Source: Myxococcus stipitatus DSM 14675 | Lineage (GTDB): Bacteria; Myxococcota; Myxococcia; Myxococcales; Myxococcaceae | DNA: 64,000 nucleotides | Direction: 5' to 3' | Assembly (NCBI RefSeq): GCF_000331735.1 | Contig: NC_020126.1 | Coordinates: 9,179,501-9,243,500 of the forward strand | In this document: piece after piece, positions 6,863 through 34,030 of the stretch | How positions within the stretch are numbered: the stretch's first letter is position 1 | Layout: every line of letters starts with the position of its first letter | Program-made: the position numbers and the translations under genes | Notes under the pieces: generated by a model | Seen by the model: only the letters and a program-made list of their open reading frames with translations | What the model was told of the DNA's origin: nothing | The model's database searches: none

Positions 6863-6945
6863 CCTCCTCACCGCGCGTCGCGCCCCAGCACCTGTTCCGA
6901 CGAGGGCCTTCGACGCCCACGCCCCGTCTTTGCCCAGAGGTCCCC

Positions 6946-9003
6946 ATGTCCCGCCGTCACTGGCCCCGACTGTCGTCGCTGCTGCTGCTGTTGTGCGGTC
7001 CCTCCGCCCTGGCGCAATGGGAGCCGGAGTCCACCGAGCCCCCTCCCGCCGAGCCCGCCACCACCGGGGCGCAGGAGGAGCTGCCGCTCGACGGTGAGTC
7101 GGAGGTGCACAGCCAGGTCGCCTCGTTCGCCATCACCAGGCTGCGTGACTCGCCCGCCGTGGTGACGTCCATGACGGGCGAGGAGATTCGCAACTCCGGC
7201 GCCCGGGACTTGATGGACGTGTTGCTCCAGATACCGGGTTTCTTCTTCGGCGTGGACACCCAGGGCGCGGTGGGCCCGGGCTTCCGAGGGCTGTGGGGTT
7301 ACGAGGGCAAGGTGCTGCTCGTGGTGGACGGCAAGGAGCTCAACGAGCAGCTCTACTCCACCCTGCAGCTGGGCAACGAGCTGCCCGTCGAGCTGATTGA
7401 GCGCATCGAGGTGGTGCGCGGTCCGGGCTCGGTCATCTACGGCGGCAACGCGGAGCTGGCCGTCATCAACGTGATTACGCGCGGCGTGCAGGGCAGCACG
7501 GACCTGATGGTGTCCGGCACGTATGGACAGCTCGCGAAGTCGAACGGGCGGCGCGGCCTGACGCTGTCGGGCCGCAAGGTCTTCGAGTCCGCGCCGGGCC
7601 TGAGCGTCTTCGCCTCCGCGTCCATGGGCCAGGGTCAGCGCAGCGACGCGGAGTTCCGCGACTTCTTCGGCAACACGGCGGAGATGGGCGGCAACACGCG
7701 GCTGAACCCGACGACGGTGCAGGCGGGCGTGGGCTACAAGGACTTGCAGCTCAGCGTGCTGTACCAGCGCTACTCCACGTCGGCCATCATCGCCTTCGAC
7801 GAGGTGCTGGAGACGCCCTCCGCCAGCGACTTCGAGTCCTTCCACGCGGAGCTGAGCAACCGCTTCCGCCCCACCGAGCGGGTGGAGATCATCCCGCGCT
7901 TCAACCTCACCCTCGCGGAGCCGTTCCGCGACTCGGACCGGGGCTCGGAGTTCTATTACGAGAAGCAGGTGATGCGGCTGCGCGGCCGGACGATGGCGCG
8001 GTGGGCGGCGCTGGACTACCTCCAGCTCACCGGCGGCGTGGACGTGGCGTCGGACCAGGGCAAGCTCAAGGGCCCGGCGAACGTGGGCCTCCAGACGCCC
8101 TTCGGCGAGGATGAGACGCTGAGCGTCTCGTACCTCAACATCGCGGGCTTCGTGGAGGCGTTCTCGGAGAACCCCATCGCCACGGTGGTGGCGGGCGCGC
8201 GGTACGAGAACCACAGCGACTTCGGCAGCTCCTTCGTCCCCCGGCTGGTGCTCCTGCGCGCGTTCGGCCCGTTCAGCGCCAAGGCGCTGTTCAGCCGCGC
8301 GTTCCGTGCGCCGGGCATCGAGAACATCAGCCTGGGCGCCGACGTGCGGCCCGAGCGCACCACCGTGTACGAGCTGGAGGGCACGCTGCGCTTCGGCGAG
8401 AACCACGCGCTGAGCGCCAACGCGTTCGACGTGGGCGTGTCGGACCCCATCATCTACTCGTACGACGCGGTGGCGAACGAGGAGGTGTACCGGAACCTGG
8501 GACGCCTCGGCAGCCGGGGCATCGAGCTGGACTACCACATCAAGGGCCCCTGGGGCCGCGCGGCGCTGAGCTACTCGTTCTATGCGCCGTCGGGCCGCAA
8601 TGACGTGGAGGACTACCAGGTGCCGGGGCACTCGAATGCCTTCACGGGGATGCCCACGCACAAGGCCTCGCTGTCCGGCAGCGTGAAGGTGATGCCGTGG
8701 CTGTCGGTGAACCCCACCGCGGTGCTGGTGGGGCGGCGCTTCGCCGTGGACGTCCCTGATGAGCGAGGCAGCTCCCCCGTGGAGGAGCTCCCCACGCAGC
8801 TCTTGCTCAACCTCTACGTGCGCGCGGAGAACGTGGGGACGCAGGGGCTGGAGATTGGCGCGGGCGTGTACAACATCCTCGGCACGAACTTCCGCATCGC
8901 GCAGCCATACAACGGCGGGCATGCGCCCATGCCCGTGTTCTCCCGCGAGTTCCTGGTGAAGCTCACGTACCTGTTCGACCCGGGGATGATGGAGCAGCCG
9001 TAG
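6946..9003 (+). CDS. TonB-dependent outer-membrane receptor
   Basis: 685 residues. A signal peptide (residues 1-24, ending 'GPSALAQ') is followed by a plug domain with 'DSPAVVTSMTGEEIRNSGARDLMDVLLQIPG' organisation, the 'VVRGPGSVIYGGNAELAVINVITRG' signature, and a long series of beta-barrel strands ending in an aromatic residue region ('LVKLTYLFDPG'). The ligand is not evident; the locus has no riboswitch or siderophore gene. AGAGG lies 5 nt before the ATG. It probably shares a transcript with the upstream PEGA protein and kinase (83-bp gap). Confidence 0.85.
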   Translation: MSRRHWPRLSSLLLLLCGPSALAQWEPESTEPPPAEPATTGAQEELPLDGESEVHSQVASFAITRLRDSPAVVTSMTGEEIRNSGARDLMDVLLQIPGFFFGVDTQGAVGPGFRGLWGYEGKVLLVVDGKELNEQLYSTLQLGNELPVELIERIEVVRGPGSVIYGGNAELAVINVITRGVQGSTDLMVSGTYGQLAKSNGRRGLTLSGRKVFESAPGLSVFASASMGQGQRSDAEFRDFFGNTAEMGGNTRLNPTTVQAGVGYKDLQLSVLYQRYSTSAIIAFDEVLETPSASDFESFHAELSNRFRPTERVEIIPRFNLTLAEPFRDSDRGSEFYYEKQVMRLRGRTMARWAALDYLQLTGGVDVASDQGKLKGPANVGLQTPFGEDETLSVSYLNIAGFVEAFSENPIATVVAGARYENHSDFGSSFVPRLVLLRAFGPFSAKALFSRAFRAPGIENISLGADVRPERTTVYELEGTLRFGENHALSANAFDVGVSDPIIYSYDAVANEEVYRNLGRLGSRGIELDYHIKGPWGRAALSYSFYAPSGRNDVEDYQVPGHSNAFTGMPTHKASLSGSVKVMPWLSVNPTAVLVGRRFAVDVPDERGSSPVEELPTQLLLNLYVRAENVGTQGLEIGAGVYNILGTNFRIAQPYNGGHAPMPVFSREFLVKLTYLFDPGMMEQP

Positions 9004-9015
9004 CCGCCGCGTCAC

Positions 9016-9672
9016 TCAGGGGTGACGCTCCAGGACGATGTCGCGCTTCGCGAGCCACAGGCCGTCGGAGTCGCGCTCCAGTCGGATGATGCCGCCTCCG
9101 CCTCGGAACTCCTGGCTGGCGCGGTACTCCGGCGTCACCCCGAACTCGCCGTCGAAGACGACGTCGTCGATGTAGTACGCGCGGCGGCCGGGCTCCTGGA
9201 TGACCAGGTGGATGTGCGCCGGGAGCGTGTCGTTGGGATAGGGCGCGGGCTTGATGGTGTTGAAGGTGTAGACGCCATCCGCACCCGTCTTCGCCCAGCC
9301 GCGCAGGCGGCCGTGCCGGCGGCTCCACTCGGACTCATCTCTCCCGTTCGCGTAGAGCCCCTCCGCGTTGGTGTGGTGCGCGTAGATGACGACCCCGGCG
9401 ACGGGCTTGCGGCCATCAACACTCAGGACCCTGCCCGTCAGGCGCAGCCGCTCGCCGGGCTCCGCGCTGTTGGCCAACTGCACCGTGGCGGGGAGCGTCG
9501 AGTGCTCCCGCTCCAGGATGGCCTCGCAGCCTTCGCAAACATAGAGGTTGGCCCTGGCACGGGACGTCAAGTCTCCACTGGCCTCGGCCGAGGTCGCCAA
9601 CGAGCACCCCACCCCACCCACCACACAAGCCCCCAGCCCCCACAACACGGAACGCCTATCGAGCTCTTGCAT
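9016..9672 (-). CDS. Secreted intradiol ring-cleavage dioxygenase-like lipoprotein
   Basis: 218 residues. The N-terminus carries twin arginines ('DRRSVLWGLG') and a lipobox-like 'GGVGC', fitting Tat export and lipidation. The C-terminal 140 residues match the catechol/protocatechuate intradiol dioxygenase fold: 'GRVLSVDGRKPVAGVVIYAHHTN', a candidate iron-ligand Tyr in 'GLYANG', 'GWAKTGADGVYTFNTIKP' and the 'PAHIH' His-X-His iron site. Exported members are known in many bacteria, usually with unknown aromatic substrates. The ribosome site is locked in a hairpin (9675-9693). It follows the SDR gene by 89 bp on the same strand. Confidence 0.8.
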   Translation of the reverse strand: MQELDRRSVLWGLGACVVGGVGCSLATSAEASGDLTSRARANLYVCEGCEAILEREHSTLPATVQLANSAEPGERLRLTGRVLSVDGRKPVAGVVIYAHHTNAEGLYANGRDESEWSRRHGRLRGWAKTGADGVYTFNTIKPAPYPNDTLPAHIHLVIQEPGRRAYYIDDVVFDGEFGVTPEYRASQEFRGGGGIIRLERDSDGLWLAKRDIVLERHP

Positions 9673-9674
9673 GT

Positions 9675-9693
9675 GTTCCCTGTAACCGGGAAC
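9675..9693 (-). promoter_or_regulatory. Hairpin over the dioxygenase ribosome-binding site
   Basis: On the minus strand GTTCCC and GGGAAC pair perfectly around a 7-nt loop. The right arm contains the AGGGA Shine-Dalgarno sequence 7 nt before the ATG (9672), so the stem should mask the site in mRNA. Whether it is used for control is inferred. Confidence 0.45.
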
Positions 9694-9761
9694 TTACCCG
9701 TTGATTCCGACAGACGGTGCTCTTGTGGTGCGGAGCACGGGCGCGCAGCGGTGTCAGGCCC

Positions 9762-10622
9762 TCACGCGGCGCCGCTGGAGGCCGAGGCGGCGAGCATCTT
9801 CCTCCGCCGTCGCTTCATCCCCGCAATCAGCAGCCGCTGGTAGAGCGTGGGCAGCAGCCGCTGCAGCAGGTCGATGAACACGGCATCCATGCCGATGAGC
9901 TGGCGGCGTCGGTTCTTCTGGATTGCCGCGAGGATGTTCTCCGCGGCCTGCTCGGGCGTGGTGGCGAACGCCTTCTCGAAGTCCTTCGAGGAGCGCTCAT
10001 CCGTCCACCCCGGTCGCATCGTCACCCGCGCGTTGCGCGCGATGTTCGTCTTGATGCCGCCCGGGTGGACACACGTGGCGCCGATGGCGTCGGACTCCAC
10101 CTCCAGCTCCTGCCGCAGCGCCTCCGTGAAGCCCTTCACCGCGAACTTCGCCGAGTTGTACGCCGCCTGCGTCGGCACCCCAATCAGCCCGAACACGCTG
10201 GAGACGTTGACGACGTGCCCCTCCCCCGCCGCCTTCAGGTGCGGCAGGAAGGCCTTCGTCCCGTACACCACGCCCCAGAAGTTGATGTTCATCAGCCACT
10301 CGAAGTCCTCGTATCGGGTGTCTTCGATGGTGGCCCCCAGCGCCACGCCCGCGTTGTTGATGATGACGTGGACCGCGCCGAACTCGCGCGCCACCTCATC
10401 CGCCCAGGTGTGCACCTGCTCGCGCTTCGCGACGTCCACCCGGTCCACCCGGACGCGCACGCCCTTCGCCCGGCACAGCGCCTCCGTCTCGGCCAGTCCG
10501 CTCATGTTCACATCGGACAGCGCGACGTGACAGCCCTTGCTCGCCAACAACACCGCCGTCGCGCGACCGATGCCCGAGCCCGCGCCCGTAATCGCCGCGA
10601 CCTTGTCTTTCACCGTCTTCAT
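9762..10622 (-). CDS. Short-chain dehydrogenase/reductase (SDR)
   Basis: 286 residues with all classical SDR motifs: cofactor loop 'GAGSGIGRA' near the N-terminus, 'NNAG', a catalytic Ser in 'NVSSVFG' and the 'YNSAK' Tyr/Lys pair. The Asp at the end of the second strand ('LSDVNMSG') favours NAD(H). The C-terminus is unusually basic ('KRRRRK'), as in SDRs paired with flavin monooxygenases. The ATG at 10622 has GGAG 6 nt upstream. It begins 25 bp after the monooxygenase stop, so the two probably act on one substrate, interconverting an alcohol and a ketone before Baeyer-Villiger oxidation. Confidence 0.88.
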   Translation of the reverse strand: MKTVKDKVAAITGAGSGIGRATAVLLASKGCHVALSDVNMSGLAETEALCRAKGVRVRVDRVDVAKREQVHTWADEVAREFGAVHVIINNAGVALGATIEDTRYEDFEWLMNINFWGVVYGTKAFLPHLKAAGEGHVVNVSSVFGLIGVPTQAAYNSAKFAVKGFTEALRQELEVESDAIGATCVHPGGIKTNIARNARVTMRPGWTDERSSKDFEKAFATTPEQAAENILAAIQKNRRRQLIGMDAVFIDLLQRLLPTLYQRLLIAGMKRRRRKMLAASASSGAA

Positions 10623-10647
10623 CGTTGGCTCCGTTTCGCACACCACG

Positions 10648-12174
10648 TCATCCGCGCGCCAGAGCCCGCGGCCGCAGCCCCACCTCACGCCCCCGCGAGC
10701 GTCCGTGCCGCTCGATGGCGACGTACTCCGAGGGCTCGAACGCGGAGACACGGTGCTTGAACGCGAAGGTGAACCCGGGCCACAGCGTGGAGTTGCGCCC
10801 CGTCGCATCCAGGTACCAGCTCCTGCACCCACCCCGCAGCCACACCGTGCGCGCCATCCGGGCGTCCACGTCCCGCACGAACGCCTCCTGCGCGTCCGGC
10901 GTCGGCTCCACCGCGGCGAGACCTCGGCCCTCCAGGTAGCGCAGCGCGTTCAGCACGTGCTCCACCTGGCTCTCCATCATCAGGAGCACCGTCGTGTGTC
11001 CCAGCCCCGTGTTGGGCCCCAGCACCATGAAGAAGTTGGGGAAGCCGCTCACCGACGTCCCCAGGTGCGCCTTCATCGTGCCCGCCCACGCCTCCTCCAG
11101 CGTGCGCCCGTCCCGCCCTCGGATGCACCGCGCGAACGCCGGCTCCGTCACGCGGAAGCCCGTGCCCAGGATGAGCGTGTCCACCGGGTACTCGGCCCCG
11201 GACGTGCTGACGACGGAGTGCTCGCGCACCTCCTGGAGCGCCTCGGTGACGACGTCGACGTTGGGGCGCGTCAGCGCGGGCAGGTAGTCGTCCGAGACGA
11301 GCACGCGCTTGCAGCCCATGACGTAGTCGGGCCGCAGCTTCGCGCGCAGCGCCTCATCCGGAACGGAGCGGGCCAGATGCCGGCGCGCCTCGTACTGCGC
11401 CAGCCGGATGATCCACGGGTACATGAACGCGAGCGCGGACAGCTCCCACTTCAGGTAGAGCGCCGCGCGCATCAACCACCGCACGCCCGGCACCCGCGAG
11501 TACAGCCAGCGTGTCCACGCCGCGATGGGGCGGTCATTGCGCGGCAGCACCCATGGCGGCGTGCGCTGGAAGAGCACCAGCTTCTCCACCTCCGGCTGGA
11601 TGGCCGGAACGAACTGCACCGCCGACGCGCCCGTGCCCACCACCGCCACCGTGCGGCCCTTCAGGGAGTAGTCGTGGTCCCACTGGGACGAGTGCATCAC
11701 CTTGCCGCGGAAGCGCTCCAGCCCCGCCACCTCCGGCAGCGCGGGCACATCGAAGGCCCCCGCCGCGAGGATGAGGACGTCCGCGGTGAAGAGCCCCTCC
11801 GACGTCCGCAGCCGCCAGTGCTGCGCGCTGTCGTCCCAGCGCGCGTCCTCGACGGTGTGCTTCAGGCGGACGTGCCCGAGCACTCCGAACCGCGTCGCGC
11901 AGTCGCGCAGGTACGCCTGGATCTCCGACCGGGGCGAGTACACCCGGGACCAGTGCGGATTCGGCGCGAAGGAGAACGAGTACAGGTGCGAGGGGACGTC
12001 ACACGCGCACCCGGGATAGTCGTTGTCGCGCCAGACGCCGCCCAGCTCGGCGCTCCGCTCGAAGAGGACGAAGTCCTCCACGCCCTCCTGCCTGAGCCGG
12101 ATGGCCGTGCCCAGGCCACCGAACCCACCGCCGACAATGGCCACGTGGAAGTGCCGCGAGCGCGACAGGGACAT
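10648..12174 (-). CDS. Baeyer-Villiger-type flavin monooxygenase
   Basis: 508 residues. The N-terminal FAD-binding 'GGGFGGLG' and the second dinucleotide motif 'GTGASA' flank the Baeyer-Villiger fingerprint FxGxxxHxxxW(D), seen as 'FRGKVMHSSQWD'. Further matches are the 'WDHDYSLKGRTVAVVG' block and the C-terminal 'GFPNFFMVLGPNTGLGH'. These enzymes insert oxygen next to a ketone using NADPH and FAD. The ATG at 12174 has GGAGG 5 nt upstream. It sits 49 bp downstream of mntP and upstream of the SDR gene, all on the minus strand; the link to the hprK-rapZ genes may be only readthrough. Confidence 0.88.
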   Translation of the reverse strand: MSLSRSRHFHVAIVGGGFGGLGTAIRLRQEGVEDFVLFERSAELGGVWRDNDYPGCACDVPSHLYSFSFAPNPHWSRVYSPRSEIQAYLRDCATRFGVLGHVRLKHTVEDARWDDSAQHWRLRTSEGLFTADVLILAAGAFDVPALPEVAGLERFRGKVMHSSQWDHDYSLKGRTVAVVGTGASAVQFVPAIQPEVEKLVLFQRTPPWVLPRNDRPIAAWTRWLYSRVPGVRWLMRAALYLKWELSALAFMYPWIIRLAQYEARRHLARSVPDEALRAKLRPDYVMGCKRVLVSDDYLPALTRPNVDVVTEALQEVREHSVVSTSGAEYPVDTLILGTGFRVTEPAFARCIRGRDGRTLEEAWAGTMKAHLGTSVSGFPNFFMVLGPNTGLGHTTVLLMMESQVEHVLNALRYLEGRGLAAVEPTPDAQEAFVRDVDARMARTVWLRGGCRSWYLDATGRNSTLWPGFTFAFKHRVSAFEPSEYVAIERHGRSRGREVGLRPRALARG

Positions 12175-12223
12175 GGAGCCTCCAGACGGCCACTGTGCCC
12201 CACCCGAGGCCCCGCTGAAAACC

Positions 12224-12775
12224 TCAGGCGGACAGATGCTCCACGAGTGTCTTGGTGCCGATACCGATGAGCACCAGGCCGCCCAGGATTTCGATGCTGG
12301 TGCCGAAGCGCTCCCCCAGCCGCTTGCCGGCCCACGCACCCAGGATGCTCAGCACGAAGGTCAGCACGCCGATGAGGCCCGTCGAATAGAAGATGCCCAG
12401 CTCCAGCGCGGGCAGCGTCACGCCCACCGCGAGCGCGTCGATGCTCGTGGCCACGCCCAGCGTCAGCAGCATGGACAGCTTGATGCCGACGGGGGCGGAG
12501 GCGCGCTCCTCCTCGTCGTGGGAGAACGCCTCCCAAATCATGTGCCCGCCCACCAGCGCGAGCAGGCCAAAGGCAATCCAATGGTCGATGGCCGCGAAGT
12601 GCGTGAGGATGGCCTTGCCCCCCAGCGCGCCGCCCAGCGACATGCCGAACTGGAAGACGCCGAAGGTGAGCGCCAGCTTGAAGATGTCCGGCGGCCGGGC
12701 CCCGCGGATGGCCATGCCGCCCGACACCGCGGTGGCATCCATCGCCACCCCGAGCGCGAGCAGAAGCAGCGTCAT
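12224..12775 (-). CDS. mntP: Manganese efflux pump MntP
   Basis: 183 residues, about the usual length of MntP (near 190), with six predicted membrane helices in two halves. Each half carries the conserved acidic motif: 'ALGVAMDATAVSGG' near the start and 'TLGVATSIDALAVGV' in the middle. These aspartates are essential in the family. The ATG at 12775 is chosen because GGGAG lies 6 nt upstream; the ATG at 12781 abuts that site. It starts just after the rapZ stop, so it is cotranscribed with it. No Mn riboswitch (yybP-ykoY) is evident. Confidence 0.9.
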   Translation of the reverse strand: MTLLLLALGVAMDATAVSGGMAIRGARPPDIFKLALTFGVFQFGMSLGGALGGKAILTHFAAIDHWIAFGLLALVGGHMIWEAFSHDEEERASAPVGIKLSMLLTLGVATSIDALAVGVTLPALELGIFYSTGLIGVLTFVLSILGAWAGKRLGERFGTSIEILGGLVLIGIGTKTLVEHLSA

Positions 12776-12787
12776 CTCCATCTCCCG

Positions 12788-13647
12788 CTATTCCTTCTCG
12801 ATGTCGCGGTCCCAGAGCTGAACGCGGGTGTTCTCGTCGCTCAGCCGCCGGGTGAGCTCCGCGGCGATGGCCACCGAGCGGTGCTTGCCGCCGGTGCACC
12901 CCAGCGCCACCGTGAGGTACGCCTTCCCCTCCTTCTGGTAGCGCGGGAAGAGGAAGCGGCAGAGGTCCTCCACCTTCTCGAGGAACTGCTGCGTCTCCTC
13001 GCGGTCCAGCACGTAGGCGGAGACCTTGGGAACCTTGCCCGTCAGCCCCTTCAGCTCCGGGACGAAGTACGGGTTGGGCAGGAAGCGCACGTCCAGCACC
13101 AGGTCCGCCTGCGGCGGCACGCCGTACCGATAGCCGAACGACATCACCGACAGGCTGGGGCCCTTGGCGGGCTCCGGGCTGAAGCGCGCCTGCACCATGC
13201 GCTTCAGGTCATGGACGTTCAGCACCGACGAGTCGATGACCTGGTCGGCGATCTCACGCAAATCCCTCAGCGCGGCGCGCTCCGCCTGGATGCCGTCCGC
13301 GACGGTGCCGGTGGGCGCCAGCGGGTGGCGGCGGCGCGTCTCGCTGAAGCGGCGGATGAGGCTGTCATCGCTGGAGTCGAGGAACAGCACCTCCACGTGG
13401 TGACCGGCGCGACGGACCTCGTCGAGGATGCGCGGCGCCTCCTTGAGGAAGACCCCCTCGCGCGCGTCCACCACCAACGCCATGCGCTCGATGTGGCCCC
13501 CGCCCGCCAGCTCCGTGAGCTTGGGCAACAACACCACCGGCAGGTTGTCGATGCAGAAGAACCCCGAGTCCTCCAACGCGCGGATGGCGGTGGACTTGCC
13601 GGAGCCGGACATGCCGGTGATGACGACCAACTGTTTCGCGGGCGCGG

Positions 13648-24174: not shown

Positions 24175-25854
24175 TCACCGCAGGCCCGGGTTGGTGAGTT
24201 GGCCCTCTTCTTCGTCCAGCACCTCGAAGGCGGCCACCTTCTCCCGAGGCGGGCGGACCAGGCGCTCCCCCAGGGGCATCACGTCGAAGCGAGCCCCCAC
24301 GGCGGCCAGCGCCTTGCCCGTCAGCAGCACCTGCCCGGGGTTGCCCGTCGCGGCCAGCCACCCCGCGATGGGCATCCCTTCTCCTACAGCCGTGTAGTCC
24401 GAACGGACCTCCGAGCCGATCATCCCCACCAGCGCCCGGGTGGTGTGCAGGGCCATCCGCAGCTCGCAACGCTCGTTCACCGGCCGCCGGCTCATGGCCC
24501 GCTCCCAGTCCGAGCGCAGCGCCAGCGCCGCCCGCACCGCCCGCACCGGGTCATCGCCCTTCGTGTAGGGCACGCCGAACAGGGCCCGCATGGACTCGCT
24601 CAGGAAGCCCTCCACCGTGGCCTCGAAGCTGAACACGATGCCCGACGCCCGGGCGTGGAAGTCGCTGAGCAGCTGCGTGGCCTTGGCCGCCCCCAGCTTC
24701 GGCGCCAGGGCCCCGAAGCCCATCAGCTCCACATGCAACACAGTGACGGTGCGCTCCTCCAGCCCGGGGAGGCGTCCGCCCTGGCGCTGGGCCTCGGAGA
24801 CGCGGCGCTCGGCGACGTCGGGCGGATGGAAGCGCTCCAGCGCCCGGCGCACCCGCTCCATCGTCGGCCCGCCTTCGCGCGGGGAGAACTTCTGCACGCC
24901 CGTGGCCACCAGGTGCGCCACCGCCGAGCAGGCATCCAGCATGGGCTCCAGCCCATCCCCCTTCGCGGCGGTGTTGACGTAGAGGACCCCCGCGTAGGGC
25001 GGCTCCGCGCCGATGGGGATGCACAGCACGCTGTCCACGCCGTAGAGGATGACGCTCTCGCGCGCGGCGAAGCGGCGGTCGTCTCGCACGTCGCCCACGG
25101 CGAGCGCCCGGCCCTGGCGCAGCGCCTCGTCGACGATGGCGTCGGAGACGGGCACCTCGCCCTTGGCCAGCTTGCCTCGGTGGCGCACCGCCGCCGGCAC
25201 CATCGCGCCGGTGGGGTGCTTGAGGAGCACGACGGCGGTGGTGGCGTCCGTGCGCTCCAGCAGCCGGTCCATCGTCGTGTCCAGGAAGGTGGAGAGCGTG
25301 GAGGCCGTGGCGAGCGCCTCCGCGGTGCGGAACATCAGCACCAGCGTCTCCTGCCCCACGCGTGGACTGGCCGCGGCCACGGGGGACGGCGAGCCGAAGT
25401 CCTCGAAGGGCACCGGCCCCACGTTGTCCAACAGGCGCAGGACGTCCGCGTCCTTCACGCTCTTGGCCAGGAGCACCGACGGGCCCACGTCCTGCCCATG
25501 GCCGAAGCGCAGGACTCCGCCCGCGCCCAGGTTCACCATCTCCGTGGCGGCGTTCTCCACGGTGTTGGGCTGGCGGACCGCGAGCGTGTTCTCCCCCAGC
25601 GACACCGAGTCCCCAGGAGACAACTGCCGGGAGCCCTGCAGCGCCGCGCCGTTGACGCGGCTGCCGTTGCGGCTGCCCAGGTCCTCGATGCGGAGGATGT
25701 CCGCGTCGACGTAGAGCCGCGCGTGCCGACGCGACACGAGGTCGCCGCCCAGGACGATGTCGTTCTCGTCCGCGCGGCCCAGGCTCGTGACGCCTTCAGG
25801 CAGGTCGTAGGACGTATCGAAGTAGCCGGGCCCGTTGATGATGATCTGCCACAT
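24175..25854 (-). CDS. FHA-GAF protein with degenerate class III cyclase-like domain
   Basis: 559 residues. An N-terminal FHA domain (about 1-95) has the phosphothreonine-binding pattern 'LGRADENDIVL', 'VSRRHARL' and 'GSRNGSRVNG'. A GAF-like domain follows (about 170-330, 'LYGVDSVLCIPIG'). The C-terminal 180 residues align with class III nucleotide cyclases, but the two metal Asp positions are Glu ('HVELMGF' and 'SESMRALFG'), and the transition-state Asn and Arg are Pro and Trp ('GEGMPIAGWL'). Classical cyclase activity therefore seems unlikely; a scaffold or nucleotide sensor is more plausible. The gene lies upstream of the large kinase on the same strand (50-bp gap), so FHA binding of the phosphorylated kinase is an attractive inference. 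Confidence 0.85.
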   Translation of the reverse strand: MWQIIINGPGYFDTSYDLPEGVTSLGRADENDIVLGGDLVSRRHARLYVDADILRIEDLGSRNGSRVNGAALQGSRQLSPGDSVSLGENTLAVRQPNTVENAATEMVNLGAGGVLRFGHGQDVGPSVLLAKSVKDADVLRLLDNVGPVPFEDFGSPSPVAAASPRVGQETLVLMFRTAEALATASTLSTFLDTTMDRLLERTDATTAVVLLKHPTGAMVPAAVRHRGKLAKGEVPVSDAIVDEALRQGRALAVGDVRDDRRFAARESVILYGVDSVLCIPIGAEPPYAGVLYVNTAAKGDGLEPMLDACSAVAHLVATGVQKFSPREGGPTMERVRRALERFHPPDVAERRVSEAQRQGGRLPGLEERTVTVLHVELMGFGALAPKLGAAKATQLLSDFHARASGIVFSFEATVEGFLSESMRALFGVPYTKGDDPVRAVRAALALRSDWERAMSRRPVNERCELRMALHTTRALVGMIGSEVRSDYTAVGEGMPIAGWLAATGNPGQVLLTGKALAAVGARFDVMPLGERLVRPPREKVAAFEVLDEEEGQLTNPGLR

Positions 25855-26013: not shown

Positions 26014-26502
26014 TCAGCGAGGGCGGAGGATGAAGACGGAGTCCTGCCGGCGCACGGCGGTGAAGGCCCTGAGGGGGCGCTGGGCGGGCCCCTGGAGCAC
26101 CGCGCCATCCAGGGCGAAGCGGGAGCCGTGGCAGGGGCACTCCATGACGCCCTCCCGGGGGAGCCAGTCCACGGTGCAGTCGCCATGGGTGCAGATGCGC
26201 CACAGCGCGACGTAGCAGCCGGGGCGCGCGTGGACGAGCACCACGTCCAGGAGCGCCTCCGGCAGGCGCACCGGGGCGTGGCCTCCCGGTGTCTCCAGTC
26301 CCGGGTGGTCGGAGAGCCGCACCTCCACCCAGCCCTCCTCGGCGGAGCCCGGCGACGGCGCGCCGGGGCAGACACCGTCGGGCGGCAGGTCCAGGACCTC
26401 GGCCTGCCGCCACTCACCGCCGCACCCCACTCCCAGCGTGGCCAGGGCGCAGCCGCCCTGGGCCAACGAGAGGAGCACGGCGCGGCGGTCGAGCTTCGTC
26501 AC
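26014..26502 (-). CDS. Exported Rieske [2Fe-2S] protein in the B12-regulated operon
   Basis: 162 residues. The N-terminus has twin arginines ('LDRRAVLLSLAQGG') and a lipobox-like 'TLGVGC', consistent with folded export by Tat and lipid anchoring. The C-terminal half holds an intact Rieske cluster: Cys-Thr-His in 'ICTHGDC' and Cys-x-x-His in 'CPCHGSRF', so a [2Fe-2S] centre is expected. The GTG start (26502) overlaps the stop of the preceding lipoprotein gene by 4 bp (GTGA), coupling translation. As last gene of the riboswitch-controlled unit it may handle electrons for cobalamin, for example reduction before or during uptake; that role is inferred. Confidence 0.85.
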   Translation of the reverse strand: MTKLDRRAVLLSLAQGGCALATLGVGCGGEWRQAEVLDLPPDGVCPGAPSPGSAEEGWVEVRLSDHPGLETPGGHAPVRLPEALLDVVLVHARPGCYVALWRICTHGDCTVDWLPREGVMECPCHGSRFALDGAVLQGPAQRPLRAFTAVRRQDSVFILRPR

Positions 26503-27212
26503 GGCGCGACAGGCAGCGGCGCGCCGTTCACCACGGCGACACCGTCCAAATCGAAGCCCGCGGAGGTTCCCGAGGCACCGTTGGTCCCCGAGTCCTGGAT
26601 GCGCACGTAGCGGGCGCGGCTCAAGCCCACAGTGGCCAGGTCGAAGCCGTCTCCCCCCGCGACTGCCGGGTCCGTGGCGCTGATGCCCGCGGCCGGGTTG
26701 GCCGTCACGGGGCGCACGCCCGCGCAGCCCGGGAAGTTGTTCGCCCGGTCCGAGGCAGCGCACGGGAAGGTGAACCACTGCACCCCGTCATCGCTGACGG
26801 ACACCTGGCCTCGCTCGGTGAAGGCCGCCGGGCCGCCCGCGATGAGGAAGGGGTTCTCGAAGACGAGCAGGTCCACGCCCGGACCATCCACCACCGCGAG
26901 GTCCGTGAAGCGCAGCGTGATGGAGCCGGACTTGCCCAGCGACAACACGTCGAGCGAGCCGCTGTCGAGCCCCGCGCCCACCGGAGGGCCCAGGACGATG
27001 GACGGGAAGCGGTCCTGCCCGAAGCCCGCGCCGGGGCCTGGGAGGAACTCGACGACCTCATCCGCGTAGGGGTCCGAGGGGGCTGTGACGCTCGCGTCCG
27101 GCGCCGAGCCCGAGTCCTCCGGGCCCGCGTCCCCCAGGGGAGCGGAGGGGTCGCCGTCTCCGCAGGCCGTCAGTCCCGCGAGCAGCGCGAGCAGGGGTAT
27201 CCGGCGCGTCAC
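26499..27212 (-). CDS. Surface lipoprotein of the B12-regulated operon
   Basis: 237 residues. A signal peptide with lipobox ('LLAGLTAC') is followed by a short acidic linker and a beta-rich domain: 'VVEFLPGPGAGFGQDRFPSIVLGPP', 'LDVLSLGKSGSITLRFTD', 'GVDLLVFENPF' and 'DGFDLATVGLSRARYVRIQD'. The pattern resembles cell-surface jelly-roll proteins that occur next to cobalamin receptors in other bacteria. Two Cys ('FPCAAS' and 'FPGCAG') could bridge. GTG 27212 overlaps the upstream stop (GTGA). I infer a ligand-binding role at the outer face of the envelope; no enzymatic motif is seen. Confidence 0.7.
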   Translation of the reverse strand: MTRRIPLLALLAGLTACGDGDPSAPLGDAGPEDSGSAPDASVTAPSDPYADEVVEFLPGPGAGFGQDRFPSIVLGPPVGAGLDSGSLDVLSLGKSGSITLRFTDLAVVDGPGVDLLVFENPFLIAGGPAAFTERGQVSVSDDGVQWFTFPCAASDRANNFPGCAGVRPVTANPAAGISATDPAVAGGDGFDLATVGLSRARYVRIQDSGTNGASGTSAGFDLDGVAVVNGAPLPVAP

Positions 27213-28774
27213 GGCGCCACCCGGAGGCGGACCAGACGCCGGCCGTTCTTGTCGGACACACCCACCAGCACGTCGGAGCCCAGCGGCTCCAACATCGTCA
27301 CGCGGGTGCACTGGTTCGGATAGACGAGCACGGGCGTGCGCGCGCCCACGGTGACGGTGTCGCCGTGCGCGTTCGTGGAGAGCGCGAAGCGCGACACGTC
27401 GGTGCTCACGAAGGCGGTGAAGTCCTCGTTGTAGCCGCCGCGGTTGACCACCACGCCTGAGCCGAAGGAGGAGGCGCCGTTGAAGTCGGTGCCCACGTCG
27501 ATGGCCGCCTGCGTGCTGATGTCCAGCGGCGTCCCGGAGGTGAGGGCCGCGGAGAGCGGCGCGGGCGCCACGCCGTAGAGGACGTTGATGAAGTCGCCGC
27601 TGAAGAGGCCCAGCGCGGCGACGCCGTTGTCCGCCACCGAGGTGAAGCCACTGGCCACGGTGCCCTGCGGGAAGTTGACCGCGCGCACCGTGCCCATCGG
27701 CGAAGCCGAGGTCACCAGGCCGTAGACGCCCAGCCCGGTGGGCAGCGAGCCCAGACCGCCGCCGTTGATGAGCACCGCGCTCACGTCGTCCCAGGAGAAG
27801 GCCGCGGCGGTGAAGTTCTTGGCCGCGGAGAGGTAGGTCGAGTTCGCGGGCGTGGCGAAGTCGTAGAGGGCCACGGAGCCCGGCGCGCCCGAGATGCCCA
27901 GGGTGTAGCCCGCCAGGAGGCGGAAGCCGTCATTCACCACGTAGCCGCCCGAGAAGACCTGGGCGCTGCCCGCCTGGTCCGCCGGGGAGACGACGTCATA
28001 GAGCTTCGTCGTGGTCGGCTGGAGGTTGGGCCACGTGCCCAGCGAGTACAGCGCGGCGGCCTTGCCGCTGCCCTGAATGGCGTAGAGGGAGTACGTGGGG
28101 CCCGGCGAGGAGCCCACGGCGGCGACGCCGTCCGGCAGGGCGACCGACTCGGCCGCGACGAAGCCCGGCTGGAGCTGGAGCGTTCCGAGCTTCGGGTCAT
28201 ACGGGGTCGTCGCGCAGTCGACGCCTGCGTCGGTCGCCGGCCCGCCATCGGTCGGCTCACCCGCGTCCGGCTGTCCCGCGTCCGTCGGCTCACCCGCGTC
28301 CGGCTGTCCCGCGTCCGTCGGCTCACCCGCGTCCGGCTGTCCCGCGTCCGTCGGCTCGCCCGCGTCCGGCTGTCCCGCGTCCGTCGGCTCACCCGCGTCC
28401 GGCAGCCCGGCATCCGTCGGGCCCGCGTCCAGAGGGCCAGCGTCCGGCTGTCCCGCGTCCGTCGGCCCCGAGTCAGGCTGCCCCGAATCAGGCTGCCCCG
28501 AGTCGGGCCGCCCCGCGTCGGGCTGGCCCGCGTCCGGCGTCCCCGCGTCATCGAGCGGAGGCGTCACGATGGGAACGGTGTCGCACTTCTCATCGCGGCA
28601 GACCCACTGCTCGCCAGCGGGGGCGTCGCCGTTGTCGGAGCGGCAGTCGAACTGGTCGACGCACTCGGGGCGGCAGCCGGTGCCGAGCAGGGCCACCGCG
28701 AAGGTGGACACGGCCAGGGAAGCGGTCTTCATCCAGGGCGTTGCGCGTTTGGCTTCAGCGATTCTCGTCAGCAT
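27209..28774 (-). CDS. Lipoprotein with Asp-Ala-Gly-rich linker and beta-propeller-like domain, under a B12 riboswitch
   Basis: 521 residues, starting at ATG 28774 with GAGGG 7 nt upstream. A signal peptide with lipobox ('LLGTGC') precedes a small Cys-containing segment (C-x5-C...'WVCRDEKC'). Then comes a linker of repeated 'DAGQPDAGEPT' units (33-bp DNA repeat), which acts as an acidic tether, and a C-terminal beta-rich domain of about 350 residues with repeated short blades ('VALPDGVAAVGSSPGPTYSLYAI', 'GGYVVNDGFRLLAGYT'). It is the first gene after the second cobalamin riboswitch and is coupled by GTGA overlap to two further genes. This suggests a surface protein for B12 capture; direct binding is unproven. 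Confidence 0.75.
   Translation of the reverse strand: MLTRIAEAKRATPWMKTASLAVSTFAVALLGTGCRPECVDQFDCRSDNGDAPAGEQWVCRDEKCDTVPIVTPPLDDAGTPDAGQPDAGRPDSGQPDSGQPDSGPTDAGQPDAGPLDAGPTDAGLPDAGEPTDAGQPDAGEPTDAGQPDAGEPTDAGQPDAGEPTDAGQPDAGEPTDGGPATDAGVDCATTPYDPKLGTLQLQPGFVAAESVALPDGVAAVGSSPGPTYSLYAIQGSGKAAALYSLGTWPNLQPTTTKLYDVVSPADQAGSAQVFSGGYVVNDGFRLLAGYTLGISGAPGSVALYDFATPANSTYLSAAKNFTAAAFSWDDVSAVLINGGGLGSLPTGLGVYGLVTSASPMGTVRAVNFPQGTVASGFTSVADNGVAALGLFSGDFINVLYGVAPAPLSAALTSGTPLDISTQAAIDVGTDFNGASSFGSGVVVNRGGYNEDFTAFVSTDVSRFALSTNAHGDTVTVGARTPVLVYPNQCTRVTMLEPLGSDVLVGVSDKNGRRLVRLRVAP
28251..28415 (-). repeat. 33-bp in-frame repeats (acidic linker)
   Basis: Five units starting at 28251, 28284, 28317, 28350 and 28383 (exact 33-bp period, last one diverged) encode DAGQPDAGEPT-type 11-mers. 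The repeat lies between the lipid anchor and the folded domain of the lipoprotein. Confidence 0.9.
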
Positions 28775-28929
28775 CCTCGGTCCCTCTTCCGCCCCCACGG
28801 GCAGGTGGGCTTCTGGGAGGACGCGGCCGAAGGCGGACCCGAGCACCCTCGAGGTGCGCGGAGCGGAATGCTGACGCCTCCGCCGCCTCCCCTCGGAGGC
28901 CTCGGTGATGTCCGTACCCGGAGGCACGG

Positions 28930-29121
28930 GTCCTTGGCAGGTTTTCGGACTCACAGGCGCGGGTGCCTTCCAGGCACCCTTCTACTGGCCGTCGCTTCCC
29001 AGCCCCGTGGAGGGCCAGTGCTTCACATGACGGCGGTCGTTCCTGCATACCGCTGCGGGGCAGTCCCGGATTCGCACCGGGTTCCCTAGAGCCGCCGTGA
29101 CCTCACGACGGCACCAAAGAC
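28930..29121 (-). ncRNA. Cobalamin (B12) riboswitch 2
   Basis: Read on the minus strand, the element begins near 29120 with TTTGGTGCCG. It continues through the conserved AGGGAACCCGGTGCGAATCC block (about 29090-29070) and a 'GACTGCCCCGCAGC' core. A B12-box-like 'GGGAAGCGACGGCCAGTAGAAG' region and the diagnostic 'GTGAGTCCGAAAACCTGCC' at the 3' side (about 28955-28936) follow. Spacing and order fit the adenosylcobalamin family. It precedes the lipoprotein/lipoprotein/Rieske unit, about 150 nt before the first start codon, and starts about 8 nt after a good -10 box. Confidence 0.93.
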
Positions 29122-29128
29122 GCGGGCC

Positions 29129-29157
29129 GGGATATGGCGGGCGACGGACGTTGTCAA
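29129..29157 (-). promoter_or_regulatory. Sigma70-type promoter for riboswitch 2
   Basis: A perfect -35 TTGACA (29152-29157) is separated by 17 bp from -10 TATCCC (29129-29134). Transcription would start at about 29120, just at the first conserved bases of the riboswitch. Confidence 0.75.
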
Positions 29158-29238: not shown

Positions 29239-30837
29239 CTACCGGAGCGCGGTCACATCGATGGCGTTGGACACGGGGCGTCGAGGATCCAGGGGACACG
29301 CCTGCAACGCGGGGCCCTTGGCCGAGGGCGTCGAGTAACCCCTTCGCTCGACGAGGCGACCGTCCTCCACCTCGACGACGAAGACGCGCCCCGCGTTCGT
29401 GTCCGCCAGGTACACCGCGCCCTGGGCCACGGCGAAGCGGCTGGCCACGGACAGCATGCAGCCCGGGGTGCCGGGCTCACAGCCGGGACTCACCGCGTAG
29501 GACGCCACGGGCAGGTCGTCCTTCACGAGCACCAGGCCCGTGGCTCGCACCGACGTCGCGATGTAGCCGTTGGCCGGGTCGTAGAGGGCCTCGCCGATGC
29601 AGGCGACCACGAGCTGGTCCCCCACGGCCTCCACGTAACCGGCGTTGAGGCAGCGCTCGGCGCCCAGGTCGATGGCGCGGACCTCGCCGGTGGCGGGGTC
29701 GATGCGCGCGAGCATGCCGGGGCCGTTGGGCCGGTAGTCACGGAAGGGATTGAGGTTGGTGAGGGCCACGTAGACAGCGGAGCGCGTCGTCGTCACCGAG
29801 TAGGGCAGCGGCATCACCGTGCCGCCATCGAAGGGTTTCAGGTCCAGGCCGGTGAGCGGAATCGTGTCGACCTTGCGCGGTGACAACGGATTGGAGATGT
29901 CGACGCGCGCGACGGCGTTGCCGTTCCGGAAGCCCGAGCTCGCTGTGCCGAACAGCGGGATGTAGAGCAGGTCGCCGAAGCGCGCGAGCGCCTGGGGACT
30001 GGTGTTCGCGCCCAGGTTCACCTGCCCCACGGTGCGCAGGCCCAGGCCGTTGCCCTGCGCGGGACCTTCGCGCATCAGCACCTGGAGCGTGTTGGTCACG
30101 GAGTCGACGACGTAGACGTAGGGCGGGTCCACGAGGATGTCGTTGGGTGAGCCGGACGTCACCCCGAGCGAGTCCTCCTCGACCACCGTGCCCAGGTTGC
30201 CTCCGGCTGCTTGAAGCAGCTTGCCGTTGGTCATGTCGGCGGCGAGCACGAAGCCATCCCACGACGCGAGCGACTGCACCCCCGCGCCAAACTCCCGCCG
30301 AGGGCCGAGCTGGTCCGTCTCCGCCTGGATGCCCACGAGCTGACCGTTCGTGAAGCAAGCCGTCACCACGTCATAGGCACAGCGGCTCGAGCGACAGGAC
30401 TGCACGTCCGGACACGTGTTGCCACAAGCGCCGCAGTTGAGCGGGTCCGTGGCGCCATCCACGCAAGCACCGCCACAGCGCAGCAGTCCTTGCGAGCAAC
30501 CTTCACGGCACGTGCCCGACTCGCACACCTGTCCCGAGGCGCAGGCGGTGCCACAAGCGCCGCAATGGGCCACATCCGTCGCGGTGTCCACGCACGCGCC
30601 ACCACAGGCCTGCGTGCCCGCGCGGCATCCACAGACACCCTCCTGGCACACCTCGCTCGCGGAGCAGGTGGTGCCACAGGCGCCGCAGTTCGCGGAGTCG
30701 CCACGAGTGTCCACGCACGTGCCACCGCAGACCGAGAGGCCCGCGGTGCACACCACGCCCTCGTCGGGACACCCGGTGAGCACCAGGGCGAAGAGGCAGC
30801 ACAGCATCCACGTGAGCGAGCTTCCTCGCTCAGACAC
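29239..30837 (-). CDS. Stig1-repeat/beta-propeller lipoprotein (BtuG-like candidate)
   Basis: About 532 residues from GTG 30837; an ATG at 30981 would add 48 residues ahead of the signal peptide, so the start is uncertain. The lipobox is 'LVLTGC'. Then come three to four Stig1-type cysteine modules ('CGGTCVDTRGDSANCGACGTTC' pattern), typical of myxobacterial surface proteins. The remaining 380 residues look like a YncE-type beta-propeller with repeated blade patterns ('SPNDILVDPPYVYVVDS', 'GAVYLADTNAGRVFVVEV'). It follows the TonB receptor behind cobalamin riboswitch 1. In Bacteroides, BtuG is a B12-binding propeller lipoprotein encoded beside BtuB; an analogous role is inferred here, not shown. 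Confidence 0.8.
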   Translation of the reverse strand: MSERGSSLTWMLCCLFALVLTGCPDEGVVCTAGLSVCGGTCVDTRGDSANCGACGTTCSASEVCQEGVCGCRAGTQACGGACVDTATDVAHCGACGTACASGQVCESGTCREGCSQGLLRCGGACVDGATDPLNCGACGNTCPDVQSCRSSRCAYDVVTACFTNGQLVGIQAETDQLGPRREFGAGVQSLASWDGFVLAADMTNGKLLQAAGGNLGTVVEEDSLGVTSGSPNDILVDPPYVYVVDSVTNTLQVLMREGPAQGNGLGLRTVGQVNLGANTSPQALARFGDLLYIPLFGTASSGFRNGNAVARVDISNPLSPRKVDTIPLTGLDLKPFDGGTVMPLPYSVTTTRSAVYVALTNLNPFRDYRPNGPGMLARIDPATGEVRAIDLGAERCLNAGYVEAVGDQLVVACIGEALYDPANGYIATSVRATGLVLVKDDLPVASYAVSPGCEPGTPGCMLSVASRFAVAQGAVYLADTNAGRVFVVEVEDGRLVERRGYSTPSAKGPALQACPLDPRRPVSNAIDVTALR

Positions 30838-31025: not shown

Positions 31026-33101
31026 TCAGGGGGATGGGGGGCGCGATGCATGAGGTTCCTCGGTGACAGCAGGTGAGTCCCGGTCGAGCGCCACCGCCAG
31101 CGTCGCGTACACAGCGCGCCCCGGCAGCGGGAAGCCGGTGAAGTCATAGGCCCGGGCGTCGAGGAGGTTCTTCACCTCCACCGACAACGTGACGTCCGGC
31201 CGCCTCAAGAAGGTGCTCGAAGCCCCCGCGCTCCAGAACGTGCGCGACGGCAAGCTCCGAGTCCCCGTGCGATTCACGAACTGCGCGGCCTGATACAGCA
31301 CCTCGGTGCGGACGTTGAGCCAATCCGGCCCCGCTCGCACACGCCCCACCCACTTGTGGCGAGGACGATACGGCAACGGCTGATTGTAGAAGCGCGGATC
31401 GCCCAGCCGGTTCTGCGTGCGCAGCCACGTGTAACCCCCACTGGCCATCAGCCACGAGAACGGACGCGCCTCCACCTCCAGCTCCGCGCCCCACACTCGC
31501 GCGGCGTCGAAGTTGTAGGGACGCGCCGCCATGGGCGGATACAGCTCGTACGCGATGAGGTTCTCGTACAGCGCGCCGAAGCCCCCCGCCGTCACGCTCC
31601 ACCGAGCCCCCTCCTCCGCCGAGCTCCACACCAGCGCCGCGTCCGCATACAGCGCCCGCTCCGGCTTCAAGCCAGGATTGGGCAGCAACATGCCCTGCCG
31701 GATGTAGAGCTCCAGGAACGAAGGTGCCCGGTGAGACTGTCCCGCGTTGGCCCGCAGGCCCAAGCCACGCCCCAGCGACACCATCGCGCCGAGCTTCGGA
31801 GAGAAGAGCCAGTAGGGCCCCACGCGCTCCAGCCGCAGCGACGGCACCACCTCCAGGACGCCGTCGAACAACGTCCACTCGTCCATCGCCATGACGCTCG
31901 TGCGCCACCAGCTCGCGGCCTGTGAGTCCCGCGCATCGGTCACCTGCTCACCCGACGCGGCCACCGTGAGCGTCAGCACCTGTGAATCCCCGAGCGGCGT
32001 GCGCCCCTCCAACTCCACGCCCCCCACCGAGTGCCGCTGCGGCCCTCCCGCCGCGAGCAGGTCGCCCGTCACCTCCAACCCATCGCGCCGGAAGAAGCCC
32101 CGTGCACTCGCCTGCGCTCCCGCACCGCCCAAGGCTCCCGACCAGCGCACGCCCAACGAGAGCCGGTCCAGGTCCTGCCGCCCCGAGGACTGTGGGTTCT
32201 GCACCGTGCCCGGAATCGCGCGGTCCTCCAGCGCCAGCTCGGAGAGCACGTCCAACCGCGAGCCCCCCGGCAATCGGCGCCGGTAGCGGAGGAGCACCCC
32301 ACCCCCTCGCGCGTCATTGCGGGCCCGCGCTTCCGCGGTGACGGGATTGTCCACCGCGGGCAGCTCATCGAGCTCGTAGGCGAAGTCGCCCTCCGACCGC
32401 CCCGCATGCAGCAGCACGAGCGCATTCCCATCCAGCAGCGGCCCCGTGACGGCGACATGCCCCAGCGCCGTGTTCCAGCTCCCGTACGTCACCTCACCAC
32501 TGGCGCGCGCACTCGAGGAGGGTGCCCGCGTGACGATGTTCACCGCGCCGCCCAGCCCTCCCGAGCCGTAGCGCGTCCCCGCGCCCCCACGCAGCACCTC
32601 GAAGCGCTCCACGAGCGCGGCGGGGACTTGAGACAAATCCGCCATGCCGCCCGCGCCGTTGAGCGGAATCCCATCCAGGAACACCAACACGCCGTTCGAC
32701 GCCGCGCCGCGAACCACCAGGCTCTTGCTCTGCCCGTACCCTCCGGTGTCCTGCACCGCGAGCCCCACCGACCCGGCCAACAGCTCCGCCGTGTCGCGAG
32801 CCTCCCCCGCGCGCTCCGCCGCATCGATGAGGGTGATGGCCCCCGTCGGGTCCCTGCGCTCGGGTGACTCCGGAGGCGGAGGTGCCTTCCCCCGCACCAC
32901 CGTTCCCGAGGACGAGACCGGTGTCGGACTGGAACCTGGACTCGTCACCGCGTCCGGAGTGGGCTCGGCGGACGGCGCGCTCTCGGCGGACGGCGCGCTC
33001 TCGGCGGGCACGGCGTCTGCGTCTCGCGACTGCGCGCGGACGTCGCCAGCGAGGCTGAGCGCCAGGCACACCAGGTGCCCGGTGAAGAAGGTGCGCCGCA
33101 T
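31026..33101 (-). CDS. btuB: BtuB-like TonB-dependent cobalamin receptor
   Basis: 691 residues from ATG 33101, chosen because GGAAGG lies 6 nt upstream and a signal peptide follows directly ('MRRTFFTGHLVCLALSLAG'). After an acidic/Pro-rich stretch the plug domain shows 'TGAITLIDAAERAGEARDTAELLAGSVGLAVQDTGG', 'VFLDGIPLNGAGG' and 'EVLRGGAGTRYGSGGLGGAVNIVTR', followed by a 22-strand-type barrel ending near an aromatic/charged tail. Substrate assignment rests on the cobalamin riboswitch directly upstream (33170-33396), a context nearly specific for B12 uptake or synthesis. The inner-membrane partner (BtuCDF) and TonB are not in the window. Confidence 0.88.
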   Translation of the reverse strand: MRRTFFTGHLVCLALSLAGDVRAQSRDADAVPAESAPSAESAPSAEPTPDAVTSPGSSPTPVSSSGTVVRGKAPPPPESPERRDPTGAITLIDAAERAGEARDTAELLAGSVGLAVQDTGGYGQSKSLVVRGAASNGVLVFLDGIPLNGAGGMADLSQVPAALVERFEVLRGGAGTRYGSGGLGGAVNIVTRAPSSSARASGEVTYGSWNTALGHVAVTGPLLDGNALVLLHAGRSEGDFAYELDELPAVDNPVTAEARARNDARGGGVLLRYRRRLPGGSRLDVLSELALEDRAIPGTVQNPQSSGRQDLDRLSLGVRWSGALGGAGAQASARGFFRRDGLEVTGDLLAAGGPQRHSVGGVELEGRTPLGDSQVLTLTVAASGEQVTDARDSQAASWWRTSVMAMDEWTLFDGVLEVVPSLRLERVGPYWLFSPKLGAMVSLGRGLGLRANAGQSHRAPSFLELYIRQGMLLPNPGLKPERALYADAALVWSSAEEGARWSVTAGGFGALYENLIAYELYPPMAARPYNFDAARVWGAELEVEARPFSWLMASGGYTWLRTQNRLGDPRFYNQPLPYRPRHKWVGRVRAGPDWLNVRTEVLYQAAQFVNRTGTRSLPSRTFWSAGASSTFLRRPDVTLSVEVKNLLDARAYDFTGFPLPGRAVYATLAVALDRDSPAVTEEPHASRPPSP

Positions 33102-33169
33102 GCTCCGCCTTCCGCTCTCTCCATCGAAGAGAGAAGGCCACACGCCCATGTCGCCACGCGACACGGCCG

Positions 33170-33396
33170 CACCCCTGGGCAGGTCTCCTGGCTGATGAGC
33201 TCCGGCTCCAGGCGCACGTTGCGTCTGGCTGGAAGGGGGCTCCCACCTTCCCCTGGAGCGCCGTGAAGCGGTGGCCAGAGTGGCGACAACCGAAGTCCCC
33301 GGCCCTGACCTCAGGGCTGCCCATTCACAGTGGCGGGACCGCGCCGGAATCGCACCGGCTTCCCTCTTGAAAGCCCGACATGGGCACCCAAGGGCG
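33170..33396 (-). ncRNA. Cobalamin (B12) riboswitch 1
   Basis: On the minus strand the element starts near 33396 ('TTGGGTGCCCATG') and shows 'GAGGGAAGCCGGTGCGATTCC' (about 33370-33350), 'GGTCCCGCCACTGTGA' (the canonical core), a GGGAAGGTGGGAG box near 33245, and the 3' 'TCATCAGCCAGGAGACCTGCC' (about 33197-33177). Sequence and order fit the cobalamin riboswitch. It lies about 70 nt upstream of the btuB-like start codon, so its 3' end is close enough to control the ribosome site. Confidence 0.95.
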
Positions 33397-33401
33397 CACC
33401 C

Positions 33402-33430
33402 CTTCTAGGGGGTCACCCTGGTCGCGTCAA
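33402..33430 (-). promoter_or_regulatory. Sigma70-type promoter for riboswitch 1
   Basis: -35 TTGACG (33425-33430) and -10 TAGAAG (33402-33407) are spaced by 17 bp. The predicted start is at about 33395, the first bases of the riboswitch. The -35 lies within the 3' end of the FHA gene. Confidence 0.7.
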
Positions 33431-33937
33431 GCGCACCCGGGGCTGCTGAGGATACGAGCGCACGTAGCGCTCGAACGCACAGGCCTGGAGGAACACCACC
33501 TCCGCGCCCCCCAGCCGCAACGAGGCCCGCGTGAAGAGCGGCGACGGACGCCCCGGCACCACCAGCACGCCTTCCAGATACGTGCCGCCGTGGCTCTCCA
33601 GGTCCGTCACGCTCCACACCTCGGTGTGTGGCTCTGGACGAAAGCGTGCGTGCTGACGAGACACCGTGGGTTCGGGCAGAACGATGTCGCACTCTGGACT
33701 GCGCCCCACTGTCACCTCGGGGCCTCGGCCTGGGTAGCGGGGGCGCAGCTCGAAGACCATCGACTCCACGACGCGCGGAGGCGACGGGCCCATCAACGTC
33801 GGCGCTTCCTCCGGGCCCACCGAGCGAGGACGGCTCGGCATCGAATCCCACACCAGCACGGGCCACCCGACATCCCTCAACAAGGCATCGGGGTCATCCT
33901 GGAGCCGTGTCATCAACACGGACAATCGATGGAGCAC
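33413..33937 (-). CDS. FHA-domain protein
   Basis: 174 residues. GTG 33937 is chosen because GGAGG lies 7 nt upstream; a GTG at 34003 is less well placed. The N-terminus is a short helical segment. The FHA domain (about residues 65-160) has 'VTVGRSPECDIVL', 'VSRQHARF' and 'ESHGGTYLEG', with the phosphothreonine-contacting Arg, Ser and His residues in place. It is the last gene of the ECF sigma-factor operon and would read a phospho-signal, perhaps from one of the kinases. The promoter of the B12 receptor unit overlaps its 3' end. Confidence 0.85.
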   Translation of the reverse strand: MLHRLSVLMTRLQDDPDALLRDVGWPVLVWDSMPSRPRSVGPEEAPTLMGPSPPRVVESMVFELRPRYPGRGPEVTVGRSPECDIVLPEPTVSRQHARFRPEPHTEVWSVTDLESHGGTYLEGVLVVPGRPSPLFTRASLRLGGAEVVFLQACAFERYVRSYPQQPRVRLTRPG

Positions 33938-34030
33938 GTCGTGTCCTCCGGGCCGGAAGGAAGTGCGTTCGCGAAGCTGTGCACGCCCCCGCCATCTGTC
34001 CACCCCCTCGCGTCCGGGCCCCTTTTCTCT

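Follow-up and report, generated by a model that had tools for sequence, protein, structure and literature searches.

A minus-strand locus of Myxococcus stipitatus DSM 14675, in which a lipoprotein gene (hereafter LP1) directly follows the gene for a BtuB-like TonB-dependent receptor, raises the question of whether myxobacteria take up B12 through a lipoprotein-capped receptor of the kind described in Bacteroides. There, BtuG caps BtuB, achieves sub-picomolar capture of B12, and hands the ligand over upon closing (PMC10404256). Homologues of BtuG have been stated to occur in Bacteroidetes only (PMC6143338), and lipoprotein-capped transporters are seemingly exclusive to that phylum (PMC10404256). 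We found no paper on the myxobacterial locus, in a literature search that most subscription journals lie outside. To address this question, we analyzed a window of 64,000 nucleotides (the whole stretch of DNA under study) together with related loci from other Myxococcota.

Along the minus strand, the order of features is a cobalamin riboswitch (RF00174), the receptor, LP1, a second cobalamin riboswitch, two further lipoproteins (LP2 and LP3, the start of LP3 overlapping the stop of LP2), and a Rieske protein (Table 1). Because two of the three cobalamin riboswitches detected with RF00174 in the whole 10.35-Mb genome lie within 4.5 kb around LP1, we conclude that this arrangement is not due to chance. 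The receptor has the Plug and barrel domains (Pfam), and its best match in the PDB is E. coli BtuB (1nqf, E 2.8e-18); it scores below the cut-off of the NCBIfam B12-receptor model TIGR01779 (E 2.5e-35, 122 bits versus 599.7) and below the curated cut-off of PRK10641 (82.6 bits versus 836). Its signal peptide suggests that the true start lies near position 33101. E. coli BtuB has the plug, the barrel, and riboswitch control in common with this receptor, whereas it lacks a lipoprotein cap. LP2 gave no consistent match in Pfam or the PDB. A sequence-only reading of the window had described LP1 as a riboswitch-controlled lipoprotein directly behind a BtuB-like receptor, and as a pairing of Stig1 modules with a propeller. 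The first description is borne out by RF00174, the lipobox, the plug and barrel, and BtuB as the closest PDB relative, and the second by three PF04885 stretches, the AlphaFold2 model, and its PDB matches. That reading was sound for the receptor and LP1 and too narrow in leaving out the unit behind the second riboswitch, with LP2 and the BtuH-like LP3.

Table 1. Features of the B12 locus, in window coordinates.
Feature	Position	Strand	Evidence or remark
Cobalamin riboswitch 1 (RF00174), heads receptor and LP1	33161-33406	-	cmscan 68.9 bits, gathering threshold 31.5
BtuB-like TonB-dependent receptor, GTG ORF	31026-33164	-	PF00593 6e-32, PF07715 4e-19
LP1, Stig1/seven-bladed propeller lipoprotein (predicted), candidate BtuG-like cap	29239-30837	-	GTG start, 532 aa
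Signal peptide of LP1 with lipobox LTG-C23; Pro at mature +2, Val at +7	30769-30837	-	sequence
Three Stig1 modules, mature N-terminus of LP1	30391-30771	-	PF04885 and motif count
LP1 propeller domain (predicted), mature residues ~133-510	29242-30375	-	AlphaFold2 model, VIA-align
Cobalamin riboswitch 2 (RF00174), heads LP2-LP3	28919-29133	-	cmscan 91.7 bits
LP2 lipoprotein, Asp/Ala/Gly/Pro-rich linker and ~330-aa domain	27209-28774	-	synteny conserved
LP3, BtuH-like lipoprotein (candidate)	26499-27212	-	AlphaFold2 model, VIA-align, profile search

Two observations concern the surroundings. The third cobalamin riboswitch of the genome (2445814-2446024; positions 11815-12025 of locus L142) heads a non-transport operon with two class-III aminotransferases, an aldehyde dehydrogenase, a CoA-transferase pair, a thiolase, and a thioesterase. 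On either side of the B12 region of the window lie genes that appear to encode FHA-domain proteins (24175-25854 and 33413-34003), and the larger of them is also found close by in certain distant loci (L029, L032).

LP1 begins, like BtuG, with a lipoprotein signal; an in-frame ATG at 30981 is a possible alternative start, yet the signal peptide begins at 30837. In Myxococcus xanthus, inner-membrane lipoproteins commonly carry Lys at +2, and matrix lipoproteins Ala at +7 (PMC3222651). Proline and valine at these positions of LP1 fit neither pattern, which by exclusion suggests a place in the outer membrane. The mature N-terminus matches the Stig1 model PF04885 in three stretches (E 1.1e-16, 61.5 bits versus a cut-off of 24.1), and LP1 also exceeds the cut-off of NCBIfam NF041328, "MXAN_6577-like cysteine-rich" (147 bits versus 100). 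LP1 thus has its cysteine-rich modules in common with the STIG1 family and the MXAN_6577-like proteins, although these models span only its N-terminal spacer and leave the propeller outside. The C-terminal ~380 residues are not named by any Pfam model (NHL, E 0.58).

The AlphaFold2 model of LP1, built from 29 sequences, is confident and rich in beta structure (pLDDT 90, pTM 0.91), and its C-terminal domain matches seven-bladed propellers in the PDB, the fold of BtuG, by both Foldseek and VIA-align. We consider a seven-bladed propeller well supported as a prediction. In the Foldseek search of the PDB, BtuG structures occupied ranks 2, 4, 9, 11, 13, and 17, among others, amid LRP-type propellers, and alignment with ten BtuG entries by VIA-align gave Z scores of 28 to 30 (rmsd 2.7-3.2 over ~290-304 residues, 14-16% identity). 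The YVTN propeller 1l0q fits LP1 equally well or better (Z 34.6), as do propellers of the 6-phosphogluconolactonase type (Z 31-33). Because these other YVTN and lactonase propellers match just as well, the fold alone does not make LP1 a BtuG. The same matches could be taken to mean that LP1 is a lactonase- or 6-phosphogluconolactonase-type enzyme whose substrate would be the ligand or a surface polymer, and one Stig1-type relative (L125) does exceed the cut-off of the SGL/gluconolactonase model. LP1 itself, however, has no lactonase match in Pfam, its conserved residues are mainly glycine, proline, and cysteine, and we know of no propeller enzyme of this type in a B12 locus; we regard an enzymatic role as very improbable.

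Whether LP1 and BtuG share ancestry was judged from profile searches, since a search of the PDB with the single LP1 sequence returned no match. With a profile of 11 propeller domains, the top PDB matches were the BtuG1-type entries 8ptf, 8ptd, and 8blw (E 1.8e-8 to 1.8e-7), and the best-matching stretch covered one to two blades. A profile of five relatives that lack Stig1 ranked 1l0q first (4.6e-8) and BtuG1 next (3.5e-6), with BtuG proteins making up more than half of its 14 matches up to E 1. The full-length Stig1-type profile (A3) reached BtuG1 at a mere E 0.06, behind a fly NHL protein, so the link to BtuG varies with the alignment chosen. The Pfam model of BtuG, DUF5074 (PF16819), matched neither LP1 nor anything else in the M. 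stipitatus genome; one Stig1-less relative of LP1 matches it weakly and below the cut-off (E 6.5e-4). Among 193 Myxococcota genomes, 30 do encode DUF5074 proteins; those among the matches listed lie at positions that differ from those of LP1. As repeat motifs are common among propellers, the sequence evidence for shared ancestry is modest, and on it LP1 and BtuG are probably distant homologues within the YncE/YVTN superfamily. The sequence-only reading had left the choice between convergence and shared origin open, and the profile with BtuG1 at its top tilts that choice toward distant shared ancestry.

Comparing LP1 with BtuG directly (BtuG1-3 of Bacteroides thetaiotaomicron and relatives; PDB 8bmx, 8bn0, 3dsm, 8okv, 8blw), both are lipoproteins with a seven-bladed propeller, predicted in LP1, and their genes adjoin that of a BtuB-type receptor and are controlled by cobalamin riboswitches. 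Both are also acidic (net charge -8 for the LP1 propeller; -18 for BtuG2, PMC10404256), and they are distantly similar in sequence profiles. LP1 differs in its Stig1 spacer, its lack of a DUF5074 match, and its low identity in structural alignment, and no Bacteroidetes lipoprotein export signal is expected in it. LP1 therefore resembles BtuG in architecture and context, yet we stop short of assigning it to the BtuG family.

The Stig1 spacer itself varies across the Myxococcota. Most LP1 homologues have three modules by motif count and some have one or two, and homologues in distant Myxococcota (L130-L134, L136, L139), at the equivalent place in the riboswitch-receptor arrangement, have none, a distribution that fits the earlier suggestion of Stig1 as a myxobacterial addition. 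Profile matches indicate that these Stig1-less homologues are circularly permuted propellers: model positions 185-364 come before 9-167 in L130, positions 168-363 come before 9-143 in L136, and the first ~45 model positions lie at the C-terminus in L131-L134 and L139, although with weak individual scores. At the level of these profile matches, the presence of the spacer goes together with the point at which the propeller starts.

LP3 has no Pfam match, and its AlphaFold2 model is only moderate (pLDDT 67). Its best match by VIA-align was BtuH2 (7biz; Z 13.3, rmsd 2.6 over 150 residues, 21% identity) in residues 316-593, the region where B12 binds, followed by the BtuH domain of BtuG1 (8blw, Z 11.9), with all others at 9.3 or below. 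Foldseek alone put F5/8-type domains first, every E above 0.001. A widened LP3 profile returned the BtuH domain of BtuG1 as its top PDB match, at a weak E of 0.037 (8blw_B, 438-499), and aligned an invariant F-E-N stretch of LP3 with "ILGNAS" (G-N-A) of that domain. The pocket residues of BtuH2 include Gln333, Asn399, Phe401, His476, Tyr510, Trp511, and Trp577; BtuH2 uses Asn399 and Phe401, and its binding domain was described as having no structural homologue known at the time (PMC8941943). The N-x-F spacing of Asn399 and Phe401 recurs in LP3, which we take as a lead. With caution, we assign LP3 the predicted fold of the C-terminal B12-binding domain of BtuH. LP3 has this fold and its riboswitch context in common with BtuH2 and with the BtuH domain in the C-terminal part of 8blw chain B, and is unlike BtuH in lacking PKD domains and in its low identity. 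Of 19 loci with distant LP3 homologues, nine have a cobalamin riboswitch close to the homologue, and in five of 20 a receptor lies inside the stretch read. We also considered LP3 as a BtuJ (DUF4465) protein and rejected this assignment on the lack of a PF14717 match in Pfam; BtuJ structures are absent among the fold matches listed, which proves nothing either way.

Several further observations concern these families. In one Myxococcota genome (G046), a true DUF4465, BtuJ-type protein (L155, 1092-1271) comes right after a cobalamin riboswitch. Between LP3 and the Leptospira LIC_13355 lipoprotein family there is a weak match, below the cut-off (E 6e-11), and that family might thus be BtuH-like too. 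In Corallococcus (L074-L081, L084), the LP2-LP3 pair is often duplicated, and locus L074 has a third riboswitch (9630-9796) ahead of the second copy.

We then asked how firmly LP1 is tied to the receptor. Among 50 Myxococcota loci with a receptor that were scanned for riboswitches, chosen to span families rather than at random, 48 have an LP1 homologue directly downstream on the same strand, and RF00174 lies upstream of the receptor in 41 of the 48 that could be scored. The arrangement recurs in M. xanthus, Corallococcus, Citreicoccus, Archangium, and Hyalangium, and LP1 was present in all 25 genus members of the first search; of 195 Myxococcota genomes, 165 contain a match to the propeller profile, the weaker matches possibly being other propellers. 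(One Myxococcus-type locus, L085, with an LP1 propeller 79% identical, comes from a record titled Comamonas sp. KCTC 72670, a label that is probably wrong.) The sequence-only reading had named a non-propeller fold, or a lack of co-occurrence with BtuB-like receptors, as findings that would overturn it; both checks were run and neither overturns it, since LP1 is a predicted seven-bladed propeller that lies with such a receptor almost universally. Distances between receptors correlate with those between propellers (Pearson 0.97, 61 loci), a correlation that linkage and vertical inheritance would produce for any genes. One could argue that LP1 binds no ligand and serves as a structural or periplasm-facing partner of the receptor, or as a surface scaffold, leaving binding to the receptor and LP3, given that propellers are common scaffolds, that the fold of LP1 does not single out BtuG, and that many other myxobacterial proteins contain Stig1 modules. 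The strict one-to-one placement of LP1 behind the receptor and its profile link to BtuG1 speak against this role, which we consider unlikely.

Most exceptions come from several Myxococcus (L024-L027) with a paralogous receptor-LP1 pair, the receptor of which has no cobalamin riboswitch upstream even at a lax threshold. The paralogues cluster alike in receptor and propeller, indicating a joint duplication of the two genes. The paralogous pair adjoins a histidine kinase and a regulator that we identified as NtrC-like by reading its sequence (in L024, at 5159-13352, also DUF2804), and it possibly handles another ligand. The receptor-LP1 pair thus need not be specific to B12. By extension, the pair in M. 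stipitatus could import a metal chelate or a different tetrapyrrole and be merely co-regulated by B12, as the sub-threshold score of its receptor against the NCBIfam B12-receptor model might also hint. We find this improbable in view of the retention of the riboswitch across loci, BtuB as the closest relative of the receptor among solved structures, and the BtuH-like LP3 in the unit behind the second riboswitch.

Taken together, we think it probable that the locus encodes an outer-membrane import unit for B12 (cobamides) in which LP1 caps the BtuB-like receptor and LP3 acts as an extra trap. The reading rests on sequence, fold predictions, gene order, riboswitches, and conservation of the pair. 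From these we infer surface exposure, B12 binding, a cap complex, transport, and handover, as follows. At low internal B12, the first riboswitch would permit synthesis of the receptor and LP1. LP1 would be lipid-anchored in the outer membrane, with the cysteine-rich Stig1 modules as a spacer that keeps the propeller off the membrane, and the propeller would bind cobamides and sit as a cap over the receptor, which would import the ligand with TonB energy. The second riboswitch would add LP2 and the BtuH-like LP3 as further or auxiliary capture proteins. The division of labor would be that of Bacteroides BtuG and BtuB, the cap capturing and then handing over. A need for B12 import fits the organism, since CbiC was not found in the M. 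stipitatus genome and myxobacteria are reported to be unable to synthesize B12 de novo (PMC9304148).

More broadly, we lean slightly toward the view that Myxococcota use lipoprotein-capped BtuB importers of the pedal-bin type, with BtuG-like and BtuH-like surface lipoproteins that bind B12 and, in one branch, a cap that combines a cysteine-rich Stig1 spacer with a circular permutation of the propeller, such that these importers would not be exclusive to Bacteroidetes. LP1 and LP3 lend themselves to direct tests in Myxococcus, which is genetically tractable. If true, the B12-cap mechanism would extend to another phylum, that of predatory soil bacteria unable to make B12, and would explain how they scavenge the cofactor of the myxobacterial light sensor CarH.
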